From NCBI RefSeq assembly GCF_014200015.1, contig NZ_JACHOT010000001.1:1488001-1552000 (forward strand): a DNA stretch of 64,000 nt. The letters are read 5' to 3'. Numbering within the stretch: the stretch's first letter is position 1; every line of letters starts with the position of its first letter. Under the pieces are notes generated by a model. It made no database searches, was not told the origin of the DNA, and worked only from the letters and a program-made list of their open reading frames with translations. Positions 51,701 to 62,747 of this stretch are shown one piece after another. This stretch comes from Aminobacter niigataensis (GTDB taxonomy: Bacteria; Pseudomonadota; Alphaproteobacteria; Rhizobiales; Rhizobiaceae). The translations under genes were made by a program, and so were the position numbers.

Positions 51701-53236
51701 ATGACCAACTCCGACCCCAAGCACCGCTTCAGCGCGGAAGCCGTCAAGGCGGCTAGCGGCGACGGCACGAAGTCCGATACCGCCAAGCTGAGCAGCGTCG
51801 CCCAGGAAGTGGCGGCCCAATACCGGCGCGACACCATGTCCCCGGTCATGGTCAGCGGCTGGCTGCGCCTCGCCGAGTTCGCTTTTCTTGTTGTGTCAGG
51901 ACTGGCGCTCTATGCCTACCATGTCGGCTTCCTCAGCCATCTCAGCTGGCAATACCCGCTCGTCATCCTGGCTGGGTCCTTTGCAGCGGTCCTCTTCTTC
52001 GAAGTCATGGACTGCTACCAGTTGCAATCGCTGCTGCGGCCGAGCGGCTCGATCGGGCGGATCGCCCTGGGTTGGGCAACGACCTTTGCGCTGATGTCGC
52101 TTACGGCCTTCTTCATGAAGGTTTCGGCAGAATATTCCCGCCTGCTGTTCGGCAGCTGGTTCGTCCTTGGCCTGTCGTTGCTGATCGGGTTGCGCCTGGT
52201 CATGGCGCGCGTCATCCGCAAGTGGGCGCGCAACGGGCGGATGGAGCGGCGCGCCGTCATCGTCGGCGGCGGCAAGGCCGCCGAGGTGCTTATCCGATCG
52301 ATCGAGCAGCAGCCCTACAACGACATCCGCATCTGCGGCATCTTCGACGACCGCGACGACAGGCGCTCGCCGCCGATCGTCGCCGGCTATCCGAAGCTGG
52401 GGACCGTCTCGGAACTGCTGGAGTTCGCGCGCATCGCCCGCATCGACATGCTGATCGTCTCGCTGCCGCTGACGGCGGAGACCAGGGTGCTGCAGCTGCT
52501 GAAGAAACTGTGGGTGCTTCCGGTCGACATCCGGCTGTCGGCGCATTCCAACCAGTTGCAGTTCCGGCCACGCGCCTATTCCTACATCGGCGCCGTGCCG
52601 ATGCTCGACATCTTCGACAAGCCGATCAACGACTGGGATTCGGTTGCCAAACGCGCATTCGACATCGCATTCAGCCTGCTCGGCATCATCGTCTTTTCGC
52701 CTGTCATGATCGCCACCGCCATCGCCATCAAGCTCGACAGCAAGGGCCCGATTCTGTTCCAGCAGAAGCGCCACGGCTTCAACAACGAGGTGATCGAGGT
52801 CTACAAGTTCCGCTCGATGTATACGGACCAGTCGGACCCGTCGGCGCGCAAGAGCGTGACCAAGAACGACCCTCGCGTCACCCGTGTCGGCCGCTTCATC
52901 CGAAAGGCCTCGATCGACGAGCTGCCGCAGTTCTTCAATTCGCTGTTCGGAAGCCTGTCGCTCGTCGGTCCACGCCCGCACGCGATCGCGGCCCAATCGC
53001 ACAACCTGCTCTATAATGAAGTGGTCGATGGCTACTTCGCCCGCCACAAGGTCAAACCCGGCGTCACCGGCTGGGCACAGATCAACGGCTGGCGCGGCGA
53101 GATGGACACCGATGAGAAGATCCGCAAGCGCACGGAATTCGATCTCTACTACATCGAGAACTGGTCTCTCTGGTTCGATATGAAGATCCTGTTCCTGACG
53201 CCGATCCGCCTGCTCGACACGGAAAACGCCTATTGA
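51701..53236 (+). CDS. Undecaprenyl-phosphate sugar phosphotransferase (WcaJ/ExoY-like)
   Basis: This 511-residue polytopic protein starts the repeat unit by transferring a hexose-1-phosphate to undecaprenyl phosphate. It has four N-terminal spans, a CoA-binding-like soluble domain (ERRAVIVGGGKAAEVLIRSI) and the C-terminal bacterial sugar transferase domain (KRAFDIAFSLLGIIVFSPVM, VIEVYKFRSMY, DELPQFFNSLFGSLSLVGPR, VKPGVTGWAQINGWRGEMDT). Glucose or galactose is the usual sugar, not proven here. It overlaps the next gene through TTGA. Confidence 0.92.
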   Translation: MTNSDPKHRFSAEAVKAASGDGTKSDTAKLSSVAQEVAAQYRRDTMSPVMVSGWLRLAEFAFLVVSGLALYAYHVGFLSHLSWQYPLVILAGSFAAVLFFEVMDCYQLQSLLRPSGSIGRIALGWATTFALMSLTAFFMKVSAEYSRLLFGSWFVLGLSLLIGLRLVMARVIRKWARNGRMERRAVIVGGGKAAEVLIRSIEQQPYNDIRICGIFDDRDDRRSPPIVAGYPKLGTVSELLEFARIARIDMLIVSLPLTAETRVLQLLKKLWVLPVDIRLSAHSNQLQFRPRAYSYIGAVPMLDIFDKPINDWDSVAKRAFDIAFSLLGIIVFSPVMIATAIAIKLDSKGPILFQQKRHGFNNEVIEVYKFRSMYTDQSDPSARKSVTKNDPRVTRVGRFIRKASIDELPQFFNSLFGSLSLVGPRPHAIAAQSHNLLYNEVVDGYFARHKVKPGVTGWAQINGWRGEMDTDEKIRKRTEFDLYYIENWSLWFDMKILFLTPIRLLDTENAY

Positions 53237-54468
53237 GCGCGATCACCTACGATCTGCCGCGGGCTGCGATCAATGCCAAGCTGATCGGGCTGATTTCCAC
53301 CGGCGCCATTGCGCTGGGCGTGTTGCTGTCCGGGTTCGTCATCCGCGAGCCTGCCCCATACGAGCTCTACATGGCCGGGCTGATCGCCGTCTGGTCGCTC
53401 TTCGGGTTGCGCATCACGCGGGCCATCACGCCGCTGGTTGTCCTACTCGTGGTGTTCAACATCGGCGGCATGATTTCGATGACCCAGATGTCGAACCTGA
53501 TGGGCACGCCGCTCTATCTCGCGGTGTCGCTGTTCCTGGCCTTCACCGCGATCTTCTTTGCCGCGGTGACCGAGACCGATCCGAAACTCTACCGGGTCAT
53601 CTTCCTGTCCTGGGTGACGTCGGCCGTGGTCACCTCCGTGCTCGGCATTCTCGGATATTTCGGCGCCGTGCCAGGGGCCGAGATGTTCACAAAATTCGGC
53701 CGCGCCGCCGGCGCTTTCCAGGACCCCAACGTCTTCGGGCCGTTCCTGGCCCTGCCGGGCATCTACCTGCTCTACCGCGTCTTGACCGAACGTCCCGCCA
53801 GGATGGCGCTGCATGCGGTGCTGCTGCTGGTCGTCACCGGCGGAATCTTCCTGTCCTTCTCGCGCGGTGCCTGGGGCCTGTTTGGCGCGTCGGCAATCCT
53901 GCTCACCGGCTTCCTGTTCCTGCAGAGCAACAGCGGCCGTTTCCGGCTCAGGATCGCAGTCATGAGCATGGCCGTCGTGACATTGCTGGCTGCCGCACTG
54001 CTCGTTGCGCTCCAGATTCCCGGCATCGGCGAACTGTTCGCGACACGCGCCCAGCTCGTGCAGGATTATGATGGGGCGCGGCTCGGCCGCTTCGCCCGCT
54101 ACGCCATCGGTTTCCTGCTGGCCACCGAAAAGCCGCTCGGCATCGGTCCGCTGGTCTTCGGCCAGATCTATGGCGAGGACACGCACAACATCTGGCTGAA
54201 GGCGCTGATGGACTATGGCTGGCTCGGCTTCGCCAGCTACCTGACGCTGATCGTGTGGACCGTAGCCGCTGGCTTCCGCATCCTCCTGCGCAACCGGCCG
54301 TGGCAGCCCTACCTGCTGTCTGCCTATGTCGTGTTCCTCGGCCACATCGCCCTTGGCACCGTCATCGACACCGACCACTGGCGCCATTTCTACCTGCTGC
54401 TCGGGCTGATCTGGGGCGCGATCGCGCTCGAGGCACGCCACCAGCGCGCCTTCGACGCCGCCAACTGA
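53233..54468 (+). CDS. O-antigen ligase/polymerase family protein (Wzy/ExoQ-like)
   Basis: This 411-residue polytopic membrane protein has about ten spans. The Wzy_C-type loop region includes AGAFQDPNVFGPFLALPGIY and FLSFSRGAWGLFGASAILLT, with TLIVWTVAAGF and the downstream EDTHNIWLKALMDYGWLGFA typical of polymerases. It should join repeat units in the periplasm. The TTG start overlaps the stop of the sugar phosphotransferase gene. Last gene of the plus-strand exopolysaccharide operon. Confidence 0.88.
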   Translation: MSAITYDLPRAAINAKLIGLISTGAIALGVLLSGFVIREPAPYELYMAGLIAVWSLFGLRITRAITPLVVLLVVFNIGGMISMTQMSNLMGTPLYLAVSLFLAFTAIFFAAVTETDPKLYRVIFLSWVTSAVVTSVLGILGYFGAVPGAEMFTKFGRAAGAFQDPNVFGPFLALPGIYLLYRVLTERPARMALHAVLLLVVTGGIFLSFSRGAWGLFGASAILLTGFLFLQSNSGRFRLRIAVMSMAVVTLLAAALLVALQIPGIGELFATRAQLVQDYDGARLGRFARYAIGFLLATEKPLGIGPLVFGQIYGEDTHNIWLKALMDYGWLGFASYLTLIVWTVAAGFRILLRNRPWQPYLLSAYVVFLGHIALGTVIDTDHWRHFYLLLGLIWGAIALEARHQRAFDAAN

Positions 54469-54590
54469 CGCGGTCATTGCCGGCGATTGCGCCCATCATT
54501 CCGGCTTGGCGAACGTTGCGGCACCCATTTGCCGGCTCAAATTGCCGTGAGCGATTTGTGACACAGAGTTACCGCTCGGCCAGTGGCAAT

Positions 54591-54616
54591 CAGACAGATA
54601 GGCGCCTATGTGTCTG
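54591..54616 (+). promoter_or_regulatory. 26-bp palindrome upstream of the first DUF1344 gene
   Basis: CAGACA and TGTCTG flank the perfect core ATAGGCGCCTAT, with one mismatched pair between, 65 bases before the start codon. It is followed by GTGGTAAGCGAAATG, which is repeated before the second paralogue. It may be an operator or a leader hairpin. Confidence 0.7.
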
Positions 54617-54680
54617 TGGTAAGCGAAATGGCCGACAAAAAATTCCGGCCACGCTACCGAAAAGTGAAAGGAATAATACA

Positions 54681-54917
54681 ATGAACAAGCTCATCCTCGC
54701 CGCTTCCGCATTTGCTCTTATGACCGGCGCTGCACTTGCTTCGTCCTCTGACGGTGTTGTTGCCAAGATCAATGCCGACGCTCGCGTCATTACTCTCGAG
54801 AGCGGCCAGAGCTACACCGTTCCGCGTGACGTTGCTCTGCCCGCGATCCAGGCCGGCGAAAAGATCTCGATCCAACTCAACGACGAAGGCGACCGCGTCC
54901 AGAGCGTTCTGCGCTAA
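54681..54917 (+). CDS. DUF1344 small secreted protein, copy 1
   Basis: This 78-residue protein has a signal peptide (MNKLILAASAFALMTGAALA) and a small mature domain of about 58 residues: RVITLESGQSYTVPRDVALP and GEKISIQLNDEGDRVQSVLR. This is the DUF1344 family, small periplasmic proteins of unknown role. The ribosome binding site GAAAGGAATAATACA is shared with the next two copies. It is the first of four paralogues in tandem. Confidence 0.88.
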   Translation: MNKLILAASAFALMTGAALASSSDGVVAKINADARVITLESGQSYTVPRDVALPAIQAGEKISIQLNDEGDRVQSVLR

Positions 54918-54975
54918 GCCGCCACCAACGATGGCTTGATGCCCCAATCAAACTGTCGCGATTGCCAAAACAAAG

Positions 54976-55010
54976 CCATGGGTCCTCCCACCCATGGCTT
55001 TCTTTGCGTT
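54976..55010 (+). terminator. Terminator after DUF1344 copy 1
   Basis: AAAGCCATGGGT and ACCCATGGCTTT form a stem with a CCTCC-type loop, followed by CTTTGCGTTT. A very similar hairpin follows copy 3. Confidence 0.82.
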
Positions 55011-55170
55011 TGGCGCCCGGGCAACCGGCAACATGCGATGGGCCAACAGCTAGAACCCAACGCATCCGCAAACGACTGCGCCTTGAGGCACCCGCATGCT
55101 CGGCGCCTCCCTTGCCTGGCTGGCTGAAGCCCCTCCTCCCTATCCCTCTCGTCCACGCCCCGCGACCGCA

Positions 55171-55260
55171 AGGCGACAAGGTCCAGCCATCCTCCACTGA
55201 GTGCGGCGGCCAGACCCCAATACTTGGTGCCCTGCATCAAGAGATAGCAGCCTGCGAAAG
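55171..55260 (+). pseudogene. Decayed 3' end of a fifth DUF1344 copy
   Basis: This stretch aligns with the last codons and the 3' flank of copy 2 (55900-55985): GGCGACAAGGTCCAG, then a degraded TCCTCCxCTxAGTGCGGCG, then ACTTGGTG-CCTGCA-CAAGA-ATAGCAGCC. The upstream coding part is gone or unrecognisable and no start or frame remains. It shows the array once had at least one more unit. Confidence 0.7.
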
Positions 55261-55287
55261 AAGGCCATCGGCCCTTCTTTGCGTTTG
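55257..55287 (+). terminator. Terminator-like hairpin after the DUF1344 remnant
   Basis: AAAGAAGG and CCTTCTTT flank an 8-base loop and are followed by GCGTTTGG, the same bases that follow the hairpin of copy 1. It is probably the relic terminator of the lost copy. Confidence 0.6.
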
Positions 55288-55594
55288 GACTTCCGGATAG
55301 CCACCGAGCAACCCGCTCTCTCGGCGCCCGCCGCACTCATCCGCCGGAAATCCCATCACCGCCTGCCGGCAGCCCCAAAGCCAGCGCCCCCGGCATCGCC
55401 TGCCCCTTTGTACCAGGCGCAGGCACCAATTCCGCACCGGCAGCGCCGGCCACCAGAGTTCGGGCATCCACCGCAACGAGTCACATCCGCAGCCGGCCAT
55501 TGCACACACGGAGCCGCTTTTGTGAACAGTCCGGCACCATTTGCCGGCTCAACACGGCGTGACTGCTTTGTGAATCAGAGTGACCACCCGGCCC

Positions 55595-55632
55595 GTAGCA
55601 ATCACAGAGATAGGCACCTATCTGATTGTGGT
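55595..55632 (+). promoter_or_regulatory. Palindromic leader upstream of DUF1344 copy 2
   Basis: AGATAGG-CA-CCTATCT is a perfect inverted repeat, and CAATC/GATTG extend it outward asymmetrically. It occupies the same place as the palindrome before copy 1, and GTGGTAAGCGAAATG follows in both. The flanking 150 bases are recognisably duplicated too. Confidence 0.68.
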
Positions 55633-55692
55633 AAGCGAAATGACGAAATAAACGCCTCGTCCTCGCTACGAAAAAATGAAAGGAATACGAAA

Positions 55693-55929
55693 ATGAGCAA
55701 GATCATCCTCGCCGCATCGGCACTTTCTATCATGGCAGGCGCTGCCTTTGCTTCGCCAGCTAACGGAATTGTTGGAAATATCAACACAGGCACCCGTGTC
55801 ATTACTCTTGAAAGCGGCAAGAGCTTTACCATCCCGCACGACGTTGCCCTGCCTGCGATCCAGGCCGGCGACACCGTCTCGCTCCAACTGAACGATGAAG
55901 GCGACAAGGTCCAGGCCGTCCTCCGCTAA
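55693..55929 (+). CDS. DUF1344 small secreted protein, copy 2
   Basis: This 78-residue paralogue of copy 1 has the signal peptide MSKIILAASALSIMAGAAFA and mature core RVITLESGKSFTIPHDVALP, then GDTVSLQLNDEGDKVQAVLR. The ribosome binding site is GAAAGGAATACGAAA. About 1 kb downstream of copy 1, with a duplicated palindromic leader. A His replaces the usual Arg in PRDVALP. Confidence 0.88.
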   Translation: MSKIILAASALSIMAGAAFASPANGIVGNINTGTRVITLESGKSFTIPHDVALPAIQAGDTVSLQLNDEGDKVQAVLR

Positions 55930-56023
55930 GTGCGGCGACTCCGAGACTTGGTGACCTGCAACAAGAAATAGCAGCCCGACAAAGATTTCGGCCTCGCTAC
56001 GGACCTATGAAAGGAATACGAAA

Positions 56024-56260
56024 ATGAAGACGATCATCCTCGCCGCCTCTGCACTTTCGATCATGACCGGCGCCGCATTTGCCTCGACTGCAAGTGGTGT
56101 CGTTGGCAACATCAATGCGGACACGCGCGTCATTACCCTGGAGAGCGGCAAGAGCTACACCGTTCCGCGTGACGTCGCCCTGCCCGTGATCCAGGCCGGC
56201 GAAACCGTCTCGATCCATTTCAACGACGAAGGCGACAAGGTCCGGGCGGTTCTCCGCTAA
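56024..56260 (+). CDS. DUF1344 small secreted protein, copy 3
   Basis: This 78-residue paralogue has the signal peptide MKTIILAASALSIMTGAAFA and mature core RVITLESGKSYTVPRDVALP, then GETVSIHFNDEGDKVRAVLR. It lies only 94 bases after copy 2. The 40 bases before its ATG match those before copy 2 but the palindromic leader is missing, so it is probably read from the copy 2 promoter. Confidence 0.88.
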   Translation: MKTIILAASALSIMTGAAFASTASGVVGNINADTRVITLESGKSYTVPRDVALPVIQAGETVSIHFNDEGDKVRAVLR

Positions 56261-56306
56261 GTGAGGCCGCATCGAGAGGCCGATTTCCGTCGGCCTGTCA
56301 GACTCA

Positions 56307-56345
56307 GAAAAGCCATGGGCCCCCACCCGTGGCTTTTTCTTTTTC
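56307..56345 (+). terminator. Terminator after DUF1344 copy 3
   Basis: AAAAGCCATGGG and CCCGTGGCTTTT pair (one G-T), followed by TCTTTTTCC. It ends the copy 2-copy 3 unit. Confidence 0.85.
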
Positions 56346-56565
56346 CACGATCAGCGCCATTGCTTCAACGCCGGCCCAGGCGTCGCGCGTGAACGATGAC
56401 TTTCCATTCCGGTTTCAGCGCGCAGGGCAAGATCGCGTGATCAAAACGTGTCCCGAGTTTACCGCGGCGGCAGCAACAAGCGGACGCTGCCGGTCGTAGT
56501 TGTAGATGTCACCCGAGGTGCCCCAGGGCCCCGGACCTCAACAACCACCATAGGGAGTTACGATC

Positions 56566-56820
56566 ATGAACAAGCTCATTCTTGCCGCCGCCGCGATAGC
56601 CCTTTTTTCAGGCTCGGCCCTCGCATCCGACGCCAGCGGCATCGTCGCCCGGTTCAATGCCGGCGCTCGCGTCATCACCCTGGATCATGGCGGCAGCTAT
56701 ACGATTCCGCGCGACGTTGCCTTGCCGTCGATCAAGGTGGGCGAGAAGGTGACGATCCTGCTCAACGACGAAGGCGACGTCGTCCGCAACGTCTTTGTCA
56801 GCCCGCAGTCGATGATGTGA
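56566..56820 (+). CDS. DUF1344 small secreted protein, copy 4 (divergent)
   Basis: This 84-residue protein has the signal peptide MNKLILAAAAIALFSGSALA and core RVITLDHGGSYTIPRDVALP, then GEKVTILLNDEGDVVRNVFV plus a six-residue tail. It is the most divergent copy. Its ribosome binding site (AGGGAG) and leader differ from those of copies 1-3, so it is probably separately expressed. Confidence 0.87.
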   Translation: MNKLILAAAAIALFSGSALASDASGIVARFNAGARVITLDHGGSYTIPRDVALPSIKVGEKVTILLNDEGDVVRNVFVSPQSMM

Positions 56821-56851
56821 CTGCCGGTGCCGTCAGCGGCACGCTACGATC

Positions 56852-56884
56852 AACGCCATGGGCGCAAGCGTCCATGGCGTTCTT
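56852..56884 (+). terminator. Hairpin after DUF1344 copy 4
   Basis: AACGCCATGG and CCATGGCGTT form a 10-bp stem with a GCGCAAGCGT loop that can itself pair. Only a short T-tract follows, so termination strength is uncertain. Confidence 0.6.
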
Positions 56885-56947
56885 GCGGAACACCGTTGCG
56901 AGCCGTTGTGCTCGCAATGCAAATGGAAATCAGGGGAAGGGATATAA

Positions 56948-57029
<82 letters not shown>

Positions 57030-57107
57030 AGGGGAGCCATATATATTCAGGGTTTGCGGCGCAAGGCCTAAAACGCTCGCCGAGAACAGAAGCCGATCAT
57101 TTCCGGC

Positions 57108-57875: not shown

Positions 57876-58028
57876 ATGCCTTGCGAAGTCAACAGCCGCT
57901 AATATACCGTCCTCGGACGGAGTGTTGCAGCGCTACAACTGTGCATATTTTCACAACCGGGAAGGGAGACCGCAGGTTGCGCACGCATTTGGCGAGCGCT
58001 ATAGAACCGTCAAATAATGAGGTGGGGC

Positions 58029-58706
58029 ATGAAATCGATTCTATTGACCGCGACCTTCCTGTGCGCTGTCTCGGGCGCTGCGTTTGCAGCCGATACTGTG
58101 GAAGTTGCTCCTGTTTCCGCCGGTTTCATCTGGACCGGGGGATATGTTGGCCTTCAGGCTGCTTACGGCTGGGGCGATACACGATTTGACGACGGCGCCA
58201 CCTCCAACTGGTTTGATGTGGACGGCTTTGCCGGCGGTCTTACAGCCGGTTACAACGTGCAGTTCGCAGGCAACTGGGTCGCCGGCATCGAGGCCGACCT
58301 CTCAATTTCCGGCGTTGACGGAGCCTTTGGCCCGGGCAACTTGGGTCAGCCGGACGGTAGCAGCTGGGGCTGCGGTTCCGACGCCTGTACGACCGACGTA
58401 GATTGGTATGCTACCGCCCGCGCTCGACTAGGCTATGCTTTTGACAATCTGTTGGTTTACGGAACTGGCGGTCTCGCTATTGGCCGGGTCAAGTCGCAGA
58501 TCGTCGATGACTCGGCTTTCTACGTCTCCGACACGAACATTGGATGGTCTGCCGGTGCTGGCGTTGAATATGCGCTAAACCAAAACTGGTCCGTCAAAGC
58601 CGAGTATCTCCACGTCGATCTGGGGTGGACCGAACTCGCAAACGACTTTTTTAAATCGGAAACCAAATTCGACACTGTTCGCCTCGGGGTGAATTACAGG
58701 TTCTAA
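58029..58706 (+). CDS. Omp31/Omp25-like outer-membrane beta-barrel protein
   Basis: This 225-residue protein has a signal peptide (MKSILLTATFLCAVSGAAFA) and the family pattern FIWTGGYVGLQAAYGWGDTR, GFAGGLTAGYNVQFAGNWVA, ARARLGYAFDNLLVYGTGGL and the terminal FDTVRLGVNYRF, ending in Phe as BAM substrates do. Eight amphipathic strands are expected. The ATG is preceded by GGTGGGG. Common rhizobial and Brucella surface protein family; no lectin or adhesin domain is visible. Confidence 0.9.
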   Translation: MKSILLTATFLCAVSGAAFAADTVEVAPVSAGFIWTGGYVGLQAAYGWGDTRFDDGATSNWFDVDGFAGGLTAGYNVQFAGNWVAGIEADLSISGVDGAFGPGNLGQPDGSSWGCGSDACTTDVDWYATARARLGYAFDNLLVYGTGGLAIGRVKSQIVDDSAFYVSDTNIGWSAGAGVEYALNQNWSVKAEYLHVDLGWTELANDFFKSETKFDTVRLGVNYRF

Positions 58707-58828: not shown

Positions 58829-59528
58829 TCAATCCTCAATCGGGTCGAGAATGTCGGGCGTGTCATTTCGCGGTGATCCGACCTTCCGGCCGATCTTCCA
58901 CATCGTCATCCGGTCCGACGGGAACGGCTTCATCAGGTCGGCAGGGTCCAATTCTGGCCCGATCCACCGGGCATAGTCGGAAGGTGCCAGGATGACCGGC
59001 ATCCTGTCATGGATCGTCGCCATCAGTTCGTTCGGCGGACAGGTGACGACGCAGAAGGTCTGTACCAATTCGCCTGTGGCAGGGTTGCGCCAGATGTCGA
59101 GATGCCGGCCAGCGCGAAGGGGCGAGCCGTCCTTCATGGCGATGGCGTAGGGTTGCTTGTCCTTGCCCGTGCCATGGATGTCCCGCCATTCGAAATAGCC
59201 GTCGATCGGTATCAGGCACCGCCTGGAGGCGTAGGCGCGCTTGAACATGCCACTGGTAGCGTTGGTCCCGGAACGAGCATTGATCGACGGTGGCCTCCTC
59301 GAGCCCGCTTCCTTCTGCCAGGATGGGATCAACCCCCATTTGGCCGAGACGAACATCGCGCTGCCCTTCACCGCGTCATCCTGCACGATGATGGGATAGG
59401 TCAGGCTGGGGCGCGCCGTTGTAGCGCGGAAAGGCATTGTCGAGGCCACCAACGGCTGTTGGATCGGCGAAGCGAAAGCTACGCAGCATTTCGGCGAGGG
59501 TCGATTTGACAAAGACGCGGCCGCACAT
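58829..59528 (-). pseudogene. Frameshifted SRAP (YedK/HMCES-type) gene
   Basis: The normal start MCGRVFVKSTLAEMLRSFRF lies at 59528, with the catalytic Cys2, and reads to RYNGAPQ. The rest (TYPIIVQDDAVKGSAMFVSA, KWGLIPSW, NARSGT, RRCLIPIDGYFEW, ATIHDRMPVIL) is in another frame. Removing one C in the CAGCCTGACC tract near 59403-59407 joins them; the 700-base span is 3n+1. SRAP proteins crosslink to abasic sites in single-stranded DNA to protect them. As read, the product would lack Cys2, so it is inactive unless this is a sequencing error. Confidence 0.78.
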
Positions 59529-62705: not shown

Positions 62706-62747
62706 CCCAGTCAAGTGCGCTACCCGGCTGCGCTACACTCCGGACCG
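62706..62747. repeat. Right copy of the tRNA-Pro direct repeat (att-like)
   Basis: Forty-two bases match 56988-57029 with one mismatch, covering anticodon, D-arm and 5' acceptor of tRNA-Pro(GGG). The 3' half of the tRNA is absent, so this is a tRNA fragment, not a gene. It lies between the integrase fragment and merR. Confidence 0.85.

Follow-up and report, generated by a model that had tools for sequence, protein, structure and literature searches.

The question raised by this locus is why Aminobacter niigataensis carries a row of small paralogous genes next to its exopolysaccharide genes, and what such a row might do. We analysed a 64,000-nt stretch of DNA (the window, to which all positions refer) and compared it across the genus Aminobacter, using the window's species and nine further genomes, one genome per species. 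Four DUF1344 open reading frames lie on the + strand inside 54681-56820, three of a head type and one of a conserved tail type:

53233..54468, + strand: Wzy_C / O-antigen-ligase-type gene, the fixed left neighbour of the array
54681..54917, + strand: DUF1344 copy 1, head type, 78 aa, with its own promoter and terminator
55693..55929, + strand: DUF1344 copy 2, head type, 78 aa, probably leading a two-gene unit
56024..56260, + strand: DUF1344 copy 3, head type, 78 aa, without a promoter box
56566..56820, + strand: DUF1344 copy 4, conserved tail type, 84 aa, with its own promoter box but without the palindrome
56948..57024, - strand: tRNA-Pro(GGG), right neighbour in nine of ten genomes

All four copies scored above the curated cut-off of the Pfam profile DUF1344 (PF07076), which is 23.1 bits, with 30.1, 23.4, 32.1 and 25.2 bits for copies 1 to 4, respectively. 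The score of copy 2 is marginal (23.4; 23.0 in the genome search and 23.3 with neighbours). A 227-nt block is common to the four copies, with 72-81% identity to copy 1. A signal-peptide-like start was recognized by eye in all 39 array copies of the ten genomes, and these apparent signal peptides suggest that the DUF1344 products are exported. The first-pass annotation, which had described four paralogues in a row with a signal peptide each, is thus supported; its figure of about 58 mature residues fits copies 1, 2 and 3 (58 each) but not copy 4 (64), the cleavage sites being judged by eye.

The array stands directly behind the Wzy-type gene in 10/10 Aminobacter genomes, and a sugar transferase, a glycosyltransferase and a Wzz gene lie nearby. 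Its reported place right after an exopolysaccharide operon is therefore a conserved one, behind genes of exopolysaccharide type. Genomes G000 to G009 contain 4, 4, 4, 4, 2, 3, 5, 4, 4 and 5 array copies, respectively (range 2-5, total 39). Further DUF1344 copies, 64 in all, are dispersed elsewhere in these genomes, and the profile matched 6-12 times per Aminobacter genome (n = 10) vs. 0-3 times in 27 other genomes of the family. DUF1344 proteins in general are small exported proteins, and the array copies resemble them in profile score, in a signal-peptide-like start judged by eye and in a mature length of about 60 residues; Aminobacter differs in having 2-5 copies in tandem, served by a promoter box of their own. 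For DUF1344 function, the open-licence literature searched yielded only mentions in two papers, in a motif table and a gene list, and PF07076 is not named there.

The array has also lost a copy:

55170..55261, + strand: fifth-copy remnant, comprising roughly the final ten codons and downstream DNA

Of all array copies, the one that the interval 55170-55310 matches best is A. aganoensis copy 2, at its 3' end and in the DNA downstream (107 bits, self-match left out); the next-best array match is window copy 2 (84 bits). Relative to A. aganoensis the remnant has one base missing, and the DNA alignment between the two is broken over the promoter and the first ~68 codons of A. aganoensis copy 2. 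These alignments indicate that the remnant is what a deletion left of a copy that the sister species A. aganoensis retains intact. A decayed fifth copy, of which only the tail is preserved, is thus real, but it sits between copies 1 and 2 and not on an outer flank.

How old are the copies? The 39 array copies comprise 14 tail copies, united in a single conserved group, and 25 head copies, which have multiplied by lineage. In the codon tree of the 39 copies the tail copies make up one side of a branch (support 99/97), and the group persists when 15 dispersed copies are added (95/93). The protein tree of 79 copies, including 40 dispersed ones, has few resolved forks and divides the tail copies between two supported groups, of 6 and 8 rows, that lie apart. 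Among the heads, three copies of G008 cluster (99/96; 99/95), as do five of G000 and G006 (95/95; 100/96). The heads do not form a group of their own, as seven dispersed copies branch among them (98/92, with the heads of G008 and G009). Support for uniting the four heads of G009 is not firm (84/70 in the 39-copy tree); with dispersed copies included they stand apart in the best tree, and holding them together was not rejected (p-AU 0.386).

Within the window, copies 1, 2, 3 and 4 pair with A. aganoensis copies 1, 3, 4 and 5, respectively (99/98, 100/97, 100/99 and 99/96). The six paralogue pairs of the window have dS values of 0.40-1.36 vs. 0.15-0.39 for the four orthologue pairs, the margin being thin for copies 1/3 (0.402 vs. 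0.390). Because paralogue dS exceeds orthologue dS and the trees are one-to-one with A. aganoensis, we rejected recent or strain-specific duplication in the window, which the first-pass annotation had proposed. The repeated gain and loss that it had also proposed agrees with a copy number of 2-5, with most heads clustering by lineage and with the copy lost in the window. One-to-one orthology, the mark of old paralogues, was found for the tail and within subclades but not for heads between subclades. The dN/dS ratio was 0.06-0.28 in the 12 orthologue pairs computed, which indicates purifying selection on the window copies.

Three promoter boxes precede the genes of the window:

54546..54573, + strand: promoter box of copy 1, CGTGA-N7-GTG-N8-TTACC, starting 135 bp before the ATG
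55558..55585, + strand: promoter box of copy 2 (and 3), starting 135 bp before the copy 2 ATG
56436..56463, + strand: promoter box of copy 4, starting 130 bp before the ATG

The box is 28 bp long and contains GTGA-type direct repeats with a pitch of 11 and 10 bp in head copies. Since copy 3 has no box and starts 94 bp after copy 2, it is probably co-transcribed with copy 2. With a relaxed pattern sought at -138 to -120, the box was found before 31/39 array copies, starting 125-136 bp ahead of the start codon. Every boxed copy (31/31) either opens its array or lies 262 bp or more from the gene before it, and five of the eight box-less copies stand 75-137 bp behind the previous copy. The other three (G006.2, G008.2 and G009.2), 264-326 bp behind their neighbour, are exceptions to this operon rule.

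Ten 16-kb array stretches contained 25 exact boxes, and 50 single-base shuffles contained none. A slightly wider pattern matched exactly 34 times in 12 whole genomes (28 in the arrays, two before DUF1344 genes of a second genus and four elsewhere), compared with 12 matches for the reversed-pattern control. The three exact matches in the window's genome all lie in the array; allowing one mismatch added 17 vs. 14 for the control, nothing beyond chance. None of 40 dispersed Aminobacter DUF1344 copies examined (of 64 known) is preceded by a box, so the family as a whole, judged from its upstream DNA, is not one regulon. We further derived a scoring matrix from the 31 Aminobacter boxes and applied it to 48 DUF1344 genes outside the genus, 43 from 40 stretches chosen among the listed matches and five of the second genus. 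One gene (L133, second genus) scored 26.7 bits and the next 0.7, whereas the training boxes scored 25.1-42.8 bits (18.9-42.9 with their own genome left out). The whole-genome pattern search added the counterpart of this boxed gene in genome G159. Because the 48 genes gave a single strong score, these comparisons argue against the box being common to DUF1344 genes in general. What is new here is the regulation, i.e. a putative control element that appears almost confined to DUF1344 promoters in the genomes searched. The box is therefore a direct handle on function; its binder and the inducing stress should point to what DUF1344 proteins do.

The leaders and ends of the transcription units carry further elements:

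54596..54611, no strand assigned: palindrome AGATAGGCGCCTATGT, upstream of copy 1
55608..55623, no strand assigned: palindrome AGATAGGCACCTATCT, upstream of copy 2
54972..55001, + strand: terminator-like hairpin after copy 1, from the terminator scan
56307..56338, + strand: terminator-like hairpin after copy 3, from the terminator scan
56852..56881, + strand: related hairpin following copy 4, lacking a proper T run and absent from the scored terminators

Related hairpin terminators had been said to separate three of the copies. Three related hairpins do exist, but only two of them score as terminators, and the 94-bp gap from copy 2 to copy 3 contains none. A sigma-70 scan of the array region found no promoter, and the hexamers were assigned by eye; by this assignment the -10 would sit in the right half of the palindrome at 54596-54611. 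We considered a structured RNA or riboswitch in the leader and rejected it. Rfam over 54300-57100 returned only the tRNA and one chance-level match (E 0.99), and the palindrome changes between species, examined by eye, break pairs and do not compensate. The palindrome is therefore likelier a DNA operator or -10 context than an RNA structure. In G004.1, G008.1 and G008.2 only its right half is retained. A genome-wide palindrome regulon was likewise rejected. At up to one mismatch the window's genome contains the two array sites only; at up to two there are 12 forward matches (including the two array sites) and 10 reverse, mostly at the same places, vs. 3 and 3 for the reversed palindrome, and those outside the array are scattered.

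A protein model (pLDDT 94.7) predicts a five-stranded OB barrel, and in model comparison its fold matches include CusF (Z 7.4) and PilY2 (Z 7.3); by the tool's own guidance, Z values near 7 are often reached between unrelated folds. Foldseek gave no match at E ≤ 0.001. SipA, YgiW and VisP are stress-inducible periplasmic proteins with an OB fold, each a single gene with a product larger than those of DUF1344. No Pfam match to the SipA/YgiW (BOF) family was obtained at E up to 1, and YgiW is absent from the fold matches listed; both results are compatible with distant kinship. We thus use these proteins as a works-like comparison only, small size and a periplasmic location, the latter predicted for the array proteins, being what the two have in common. 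SipA is described as periplasmic and expressed in dependence on a two-component system (PMC6370654, PMC5636140), and V. cholerae SipA as binding antimicrobial peptides and interacting with OmpA (PMC6370654).

We tentatively favor, at somewhat less than an even chance, a reading in which small periplasmic OB-fold proteins, encoded by a long-established tandem family, have a regulon of their own, a stress set driven by a response regulator. Its regulator, inducer and ligand are what we infer. A response regulator of the OmpR/PhoB type would bind the box, immediately ahead of the -35, and envelope stress would switch on all array units together. The exported proteins might then bind an unwelcome or exposed periplasmic ligand (a peptide, a polysaccharide or an unfolded protein), by analogy with SipA/YgiW. 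Copy number would set the amount of protein, and diverged copies may widen the binding range. The envelope role and the dosage effect suggested in the first-pass annotation may thus hold, with partial support added by the dedicated promoter box and the predicted exported OB fold. A bolder version, which we regard as quite unlikely, makes the array a miniature dedicated adaptive regulon. One response regulator, with hardly any targets outside this family, would tune envelope protection by the number and variety of OB-fold binders; the promoter-plus-gene unit would multiply in the head and shed copies elsewhere in the genome, and the tail would keep the ancestral function. With its heads and tail, the array allows dosage and specialisation to be tested apart from each other in a single genus.

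Neutral birth and death, with redundant heads whose number drifts by unequal crossing-over and with dose and variety irrelevant, would account for the absence of an apparent trend in copy number, the loss of a copy in the window, the repeats that flank the copies and the ~350-bp repeated units of G009 (starts 354 and 349 bp apart). The dN/dS ratios are low in 12/12 orthologue pairs, however, the box and its distance are kept in 31/39 copies and none of the ten genomes has fewer than two copies, and we consider pure drift unlikely. The fixed place behind the Wzy_C-type gene and the polysaccharide genes around it raise the thought that the proteins are accessories of the adjoining exopolysaccharide pathway, e.g. 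periplasmic carriers or modulators of polymer chains. Such a role appears improbable, as the array has promoter boxes and terminators of its own, relatives are dispersed in the same genomes, the ligase-type gene is unmatched in five stretches from the second genus, and 86/119 other genomes of the family have one to four DUF1344 matches. Less probable still is a metal or metalloid chaperone like CusF or the ExtJ of selenite/tellurite operons. CusF is the best Foldseek and best PDB match (E 0.0064; 2vb2, VIA Z 7.4 with an rmsd of 2.3 across 58 residues, although by the tool's guidance such a Z may reflect only a common arrangement), it is alike to the model as a small OB barrel, and all four copies match it weakly in Pfam, below the cut-off. 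ExtJ (NF040942, NCBIfam) also matches 4/4 copies, along most of their length, at E 1e-6 to 3e-4 without reaching its curated cut-off, and no selenite/tellurite operon of the ExtJ kind was seen at the array. But the metal ligands of CusF are His, Trp and two Met, and a 34-row protein alignment contains no invariant or near-invariant His, Met, Cys or Trp column; the mature part of copy 1 has none of these residues. The neighbours scanned with Pfam include polysaccharide genes and no metal transporter or metal-efflux gene.

The regulon that we favor could instead be a small part of a broad envelope regulon, if the box is simply a site to which the global regulator CenR (or ChvI) binds strongly. 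According to PMC9275681, Rhodobacter sphaeroides CenR recognises TGA-N8-TGA upstream of activated promoters, i.e. direct TGA repeats with an 11-bp pitch as in the box, and TGA-N8-TGA occurs at -131 to -134 in 16/25 head copies. It is exactly present in 0/14 tail copies, however, and within 250 bp before 6/40 dispersed copies, five at -236 to -248 and one at -139, near the array distance. The array box is also longer, has a third element and, in its full form, is nearly absent outside DUF1344 promoters. We therefore consider a global regulator possible, if rather unlikely. For ChvI, PMC9731502 quotes GCC-N8-GCC (S. meliloti) and TTGC-N3-GCAA (Caulobacter).

Judged by eye, and without being an exact ChvI-motif match, a TTTGCCGGCTCA-type block ahead of the box is conserved in first copies.

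The tandem array of four DUF1344 genes reported by the first-pass annotation is real: all four score above the Pfam cut-off and are recovered by repeat analysis. The fifth, decayed copy was also confirmed, as a remnant standing at the position of intact copy 2 in A. aganoensis (G006). The ligase-type gene to the left of the array is preceded on its 5' side by genes for a bacterial sugar transferase and a glycosyltransferase, and a Wzz gene lies close by.

53233-54468: Wzy_C/O-antigen-ligase-type gene, left neighbour of the array
54681-54917, + strand: DUF1344 copy 1
55170-55261: remnant, the tail of another DUF1344 copy, between copies 1 and 2
55693-55929, + strand: DUF1344 copy 2
56024-56260, + strand: DUF1344 copy 3
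56566-56820, + strand: DUF1344 copy 4
right neighbour of the array: tRNA-Pro(GGG)

The array lies behind the same ligase-type gene in all ten Aminobacter genomes analysed and is followed by tRNA-Pro in nine. In the tenth, an 81%-complete genome (G008), just a 47-bp piece of tRNA-Pro was matched right of the array (stretch L044), possibly because another element was inserted in the tRNA gene or because of an assembly gap. The array holds two copies in Aminobacter sp. HY435 (G004), three in G005, five in A. aganoensis and G009, and four in the window genome (G000), G001, G002, G003, G007 and G008. Matches to the Pfam profile (E <= 0.01) numbered 6-12 per Aminobacter genome, 0-3 in 27 other genomes of the family, which GTDB names Rhizobiaceae, and 0-3 in 24 genomes from other families of the order; these counts are lower bounds because the profile misses some diverged copies. 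A profile built from the array's own proteins, and so biased toward Aminobacter, gave 10 matches apiece for the two Aminobacter genomes in the sample and at most 4 in any of the 119 others. With copy 1 as query (E <= 1e-12), 7 of 297 genomes matched, five of Aminobacter and two of a second genus (g53). Tandem DUF1344 pairs were also found in other genomes by the Pfam profile (G051) and the array-protein profile (G079, G131, G140 and G141), therefore pairing is not unique to Aminobacter. No array larger than a pair was seen outside Aminobacter among the matches listed.

In a codon tree built from the 39 array copies, the 14 copies from the right-hand end (tail copies) fell on one side of a branch with 99/97 support (bootstrap/SH-aLRT) and formed orthologous sub-types across species. 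This group persisted when the 15 nearest dispersed copies, that is, DUF1344 genes outside arrays, were added (95/93); in a protein tree that included the full set of 40 fetched dispersed copies, the tail copies formed two separate supported groups instead. The 25 head copies grouped mostly by lineage. Three G008 copies clustered (99/96; 99/95), as did five copies of the window genome and A. aganoensis (95/95; 100/96). The four G009 head copies were not firmly one group (84/70); with dispersed copies added, p-AU was 0.386 for all four together, and copies 2-4 alone held (96/85). One-to-one copies are common to A. anthyllidis (G001), G002, A. ciceronei (G003) and A. carboxidus (G007). Seven dispersed copies (L069-L072, L075, L078 and L079) fell among the heads in the codon tree, joining those of G008 and G009 at 98/92. 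The promoter box described below is not present before these seven; possibly a head copy left the array and changed its promoter, or the move was the reverse.

The interpretation in the first-pass annotation, which read the array as a product of repeated duplication and loss, was partly right. Window copies 1-4 correspond, in that order, to A. aganoensis copies 1, 3, 4 and 5. Between the two species, the DNA alignment is interrupted across the promoter and first ~68 codons of A. aganoensis copy 2. The dS values were 0.15-0.39 for these orthologues vs. 0.40-1.36 for the window paralogues, and dN/dS was 0.06-0.28 over the 12 orthologue pairs computed. Thus, the family is old and constrained, with a single loss in the window genome.

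A 28-bp promoter box, CGTGA-N7-GTG-N8-T[TG]ACC, was found upstream of 31 of the 39 array copies by a relaxed search between -138 and -120 that allowed a few single departures. It starts 125-136 bp before the start codon, and in head copies it can be read as a triple GTGA repeat, with spacings of 11 and then 10 bp. Every box-bearing copy either opens its array or is separated from the copy before it by 262 bp or more. Five of the eight box-less copies lie 75-137 bp from their predecessor, a spacing as in genes of one transcript; for the remaining three (copy 2 of G006, G008 and G009) the distance is 264-326 bp. The ten array stretches contain 25 exact boxes, vs. none in 50 single-base shuffles. 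A slightly wider exact pattern, searched across the whole of 12 genomes (ten of Aminobacter and two of g53), gave 34 matches, and the pattern read backward gave 12. Of the 34, 28 are in the arrays; two are in g53, one per genome, each some 125 bp ahead of a DUF1344 gene; and of the four elsewhere, three look like one site common to G001, G003 and G007. The box is thus nearly private to DUF1344 genes, but weaker sites, invisible to this pattern, could also serve a regulator. Across the genus, the array is stable and under selection; its head copies vary, and its promoter box is close to exclusive.

Fifteen head copies contain the palindrome AGATAGGNNCCTATCT (small departures allowed), centred ~76 bp before the start; all but one, G006 copy 2, also have the box. 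By eye, its right half reads as a CTATCT-type -10, with a -35-like ATGGCA 17 bp upstream. The box would then sit directly upstream of the -35, the position where OmpR/PhoB-type activators bind.

The dispersed copies have conserved upstream sequences that differ from the array's. Of the 40 fetched, 10 (within L080-L094) have a putative ECF-like promoter pair, GCAACC-N14/16-CGTTG, in front of them. When up to two mismatches were allowed, a longer version of this pair gave one site in the window genome, before a dispersed copy (G000:C4:403171-403199); its reversed control also gave one match. Three other dispersed copies (L091, L095 and L096) carry a putative GGAAC-N16/17-GTT pair resembling the promoter of the general-stress sigma factor EcfG. 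Another group (L065-L068, L073, L074, L076 and L077) has a common conserved leader with the block CTGAAACAAACGAAACA. The ECF-like and EcfG-like pairs suggest that several stress circuits may each own one DUF1344 copy, which lends indirect support to a stress role.

DUF1344 is a known but uncharacterised family. The mature form of copy 1 (58 residues), with a 34-row alignment, gave a confident model (pLDDT 94.7) of a five-stranded barrel. Its best matches among solved structures were CusF (Z 7.4) and PilY2 (Z 7.3), followed by many OB-fold proteins. Foldseek with this model gave no match at E <= 0.001, so kinship is not claimed from the fold. The metal-ligand residues of CusF are absent. NCBIfam gave only sub-threshold similarity to ExtJ of selenite/tellurite operons.

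The array probably works through regulator-driven, exported periplasmic binders. A presumed response regulator, answering a presumed inducer, would bind the box and drive the window's four genes as three units, namely copy 1, copies 2 and 3 together, and copy 4. The products would be exported and act in the periplasm as small binders of a putative ligand. Among experimentally studied proteins, the nearest functional analogue we came across is SipA of V. cholerae. This homologue of YgiW is reported to depend on a two-component system for its induction, to bind antimicrobial peptides and to interact with OmpA (PMC6370654, PMC5636140). The published CenR site, TGA-N8-TGA (PMC9275681), fits 16 of 25 head copies and none of 14 tail copies, so CenR is only a candidate regulator.

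To the right of the array, a 42-bp direct repeat (56988-57029 and 62706-62747, 97.6% over 42 columns) covers the 5' part of tRNA-Pro. The repeats bracket ~5.7 kb that is missing from A. aganoensis, an apparent integrated element. No integrase was found among the six of its ORFs that were given to Pfam; its genes include:

58017-58703: outer-membrane-barrel gene
58832-59512, - strand: SRAP-family gene

Elsewhere in the window, 42835-43674 matches the aminoglycoside/hydroxyurea kinase family APH_6_hur with 265 bits, far above the cut-off.
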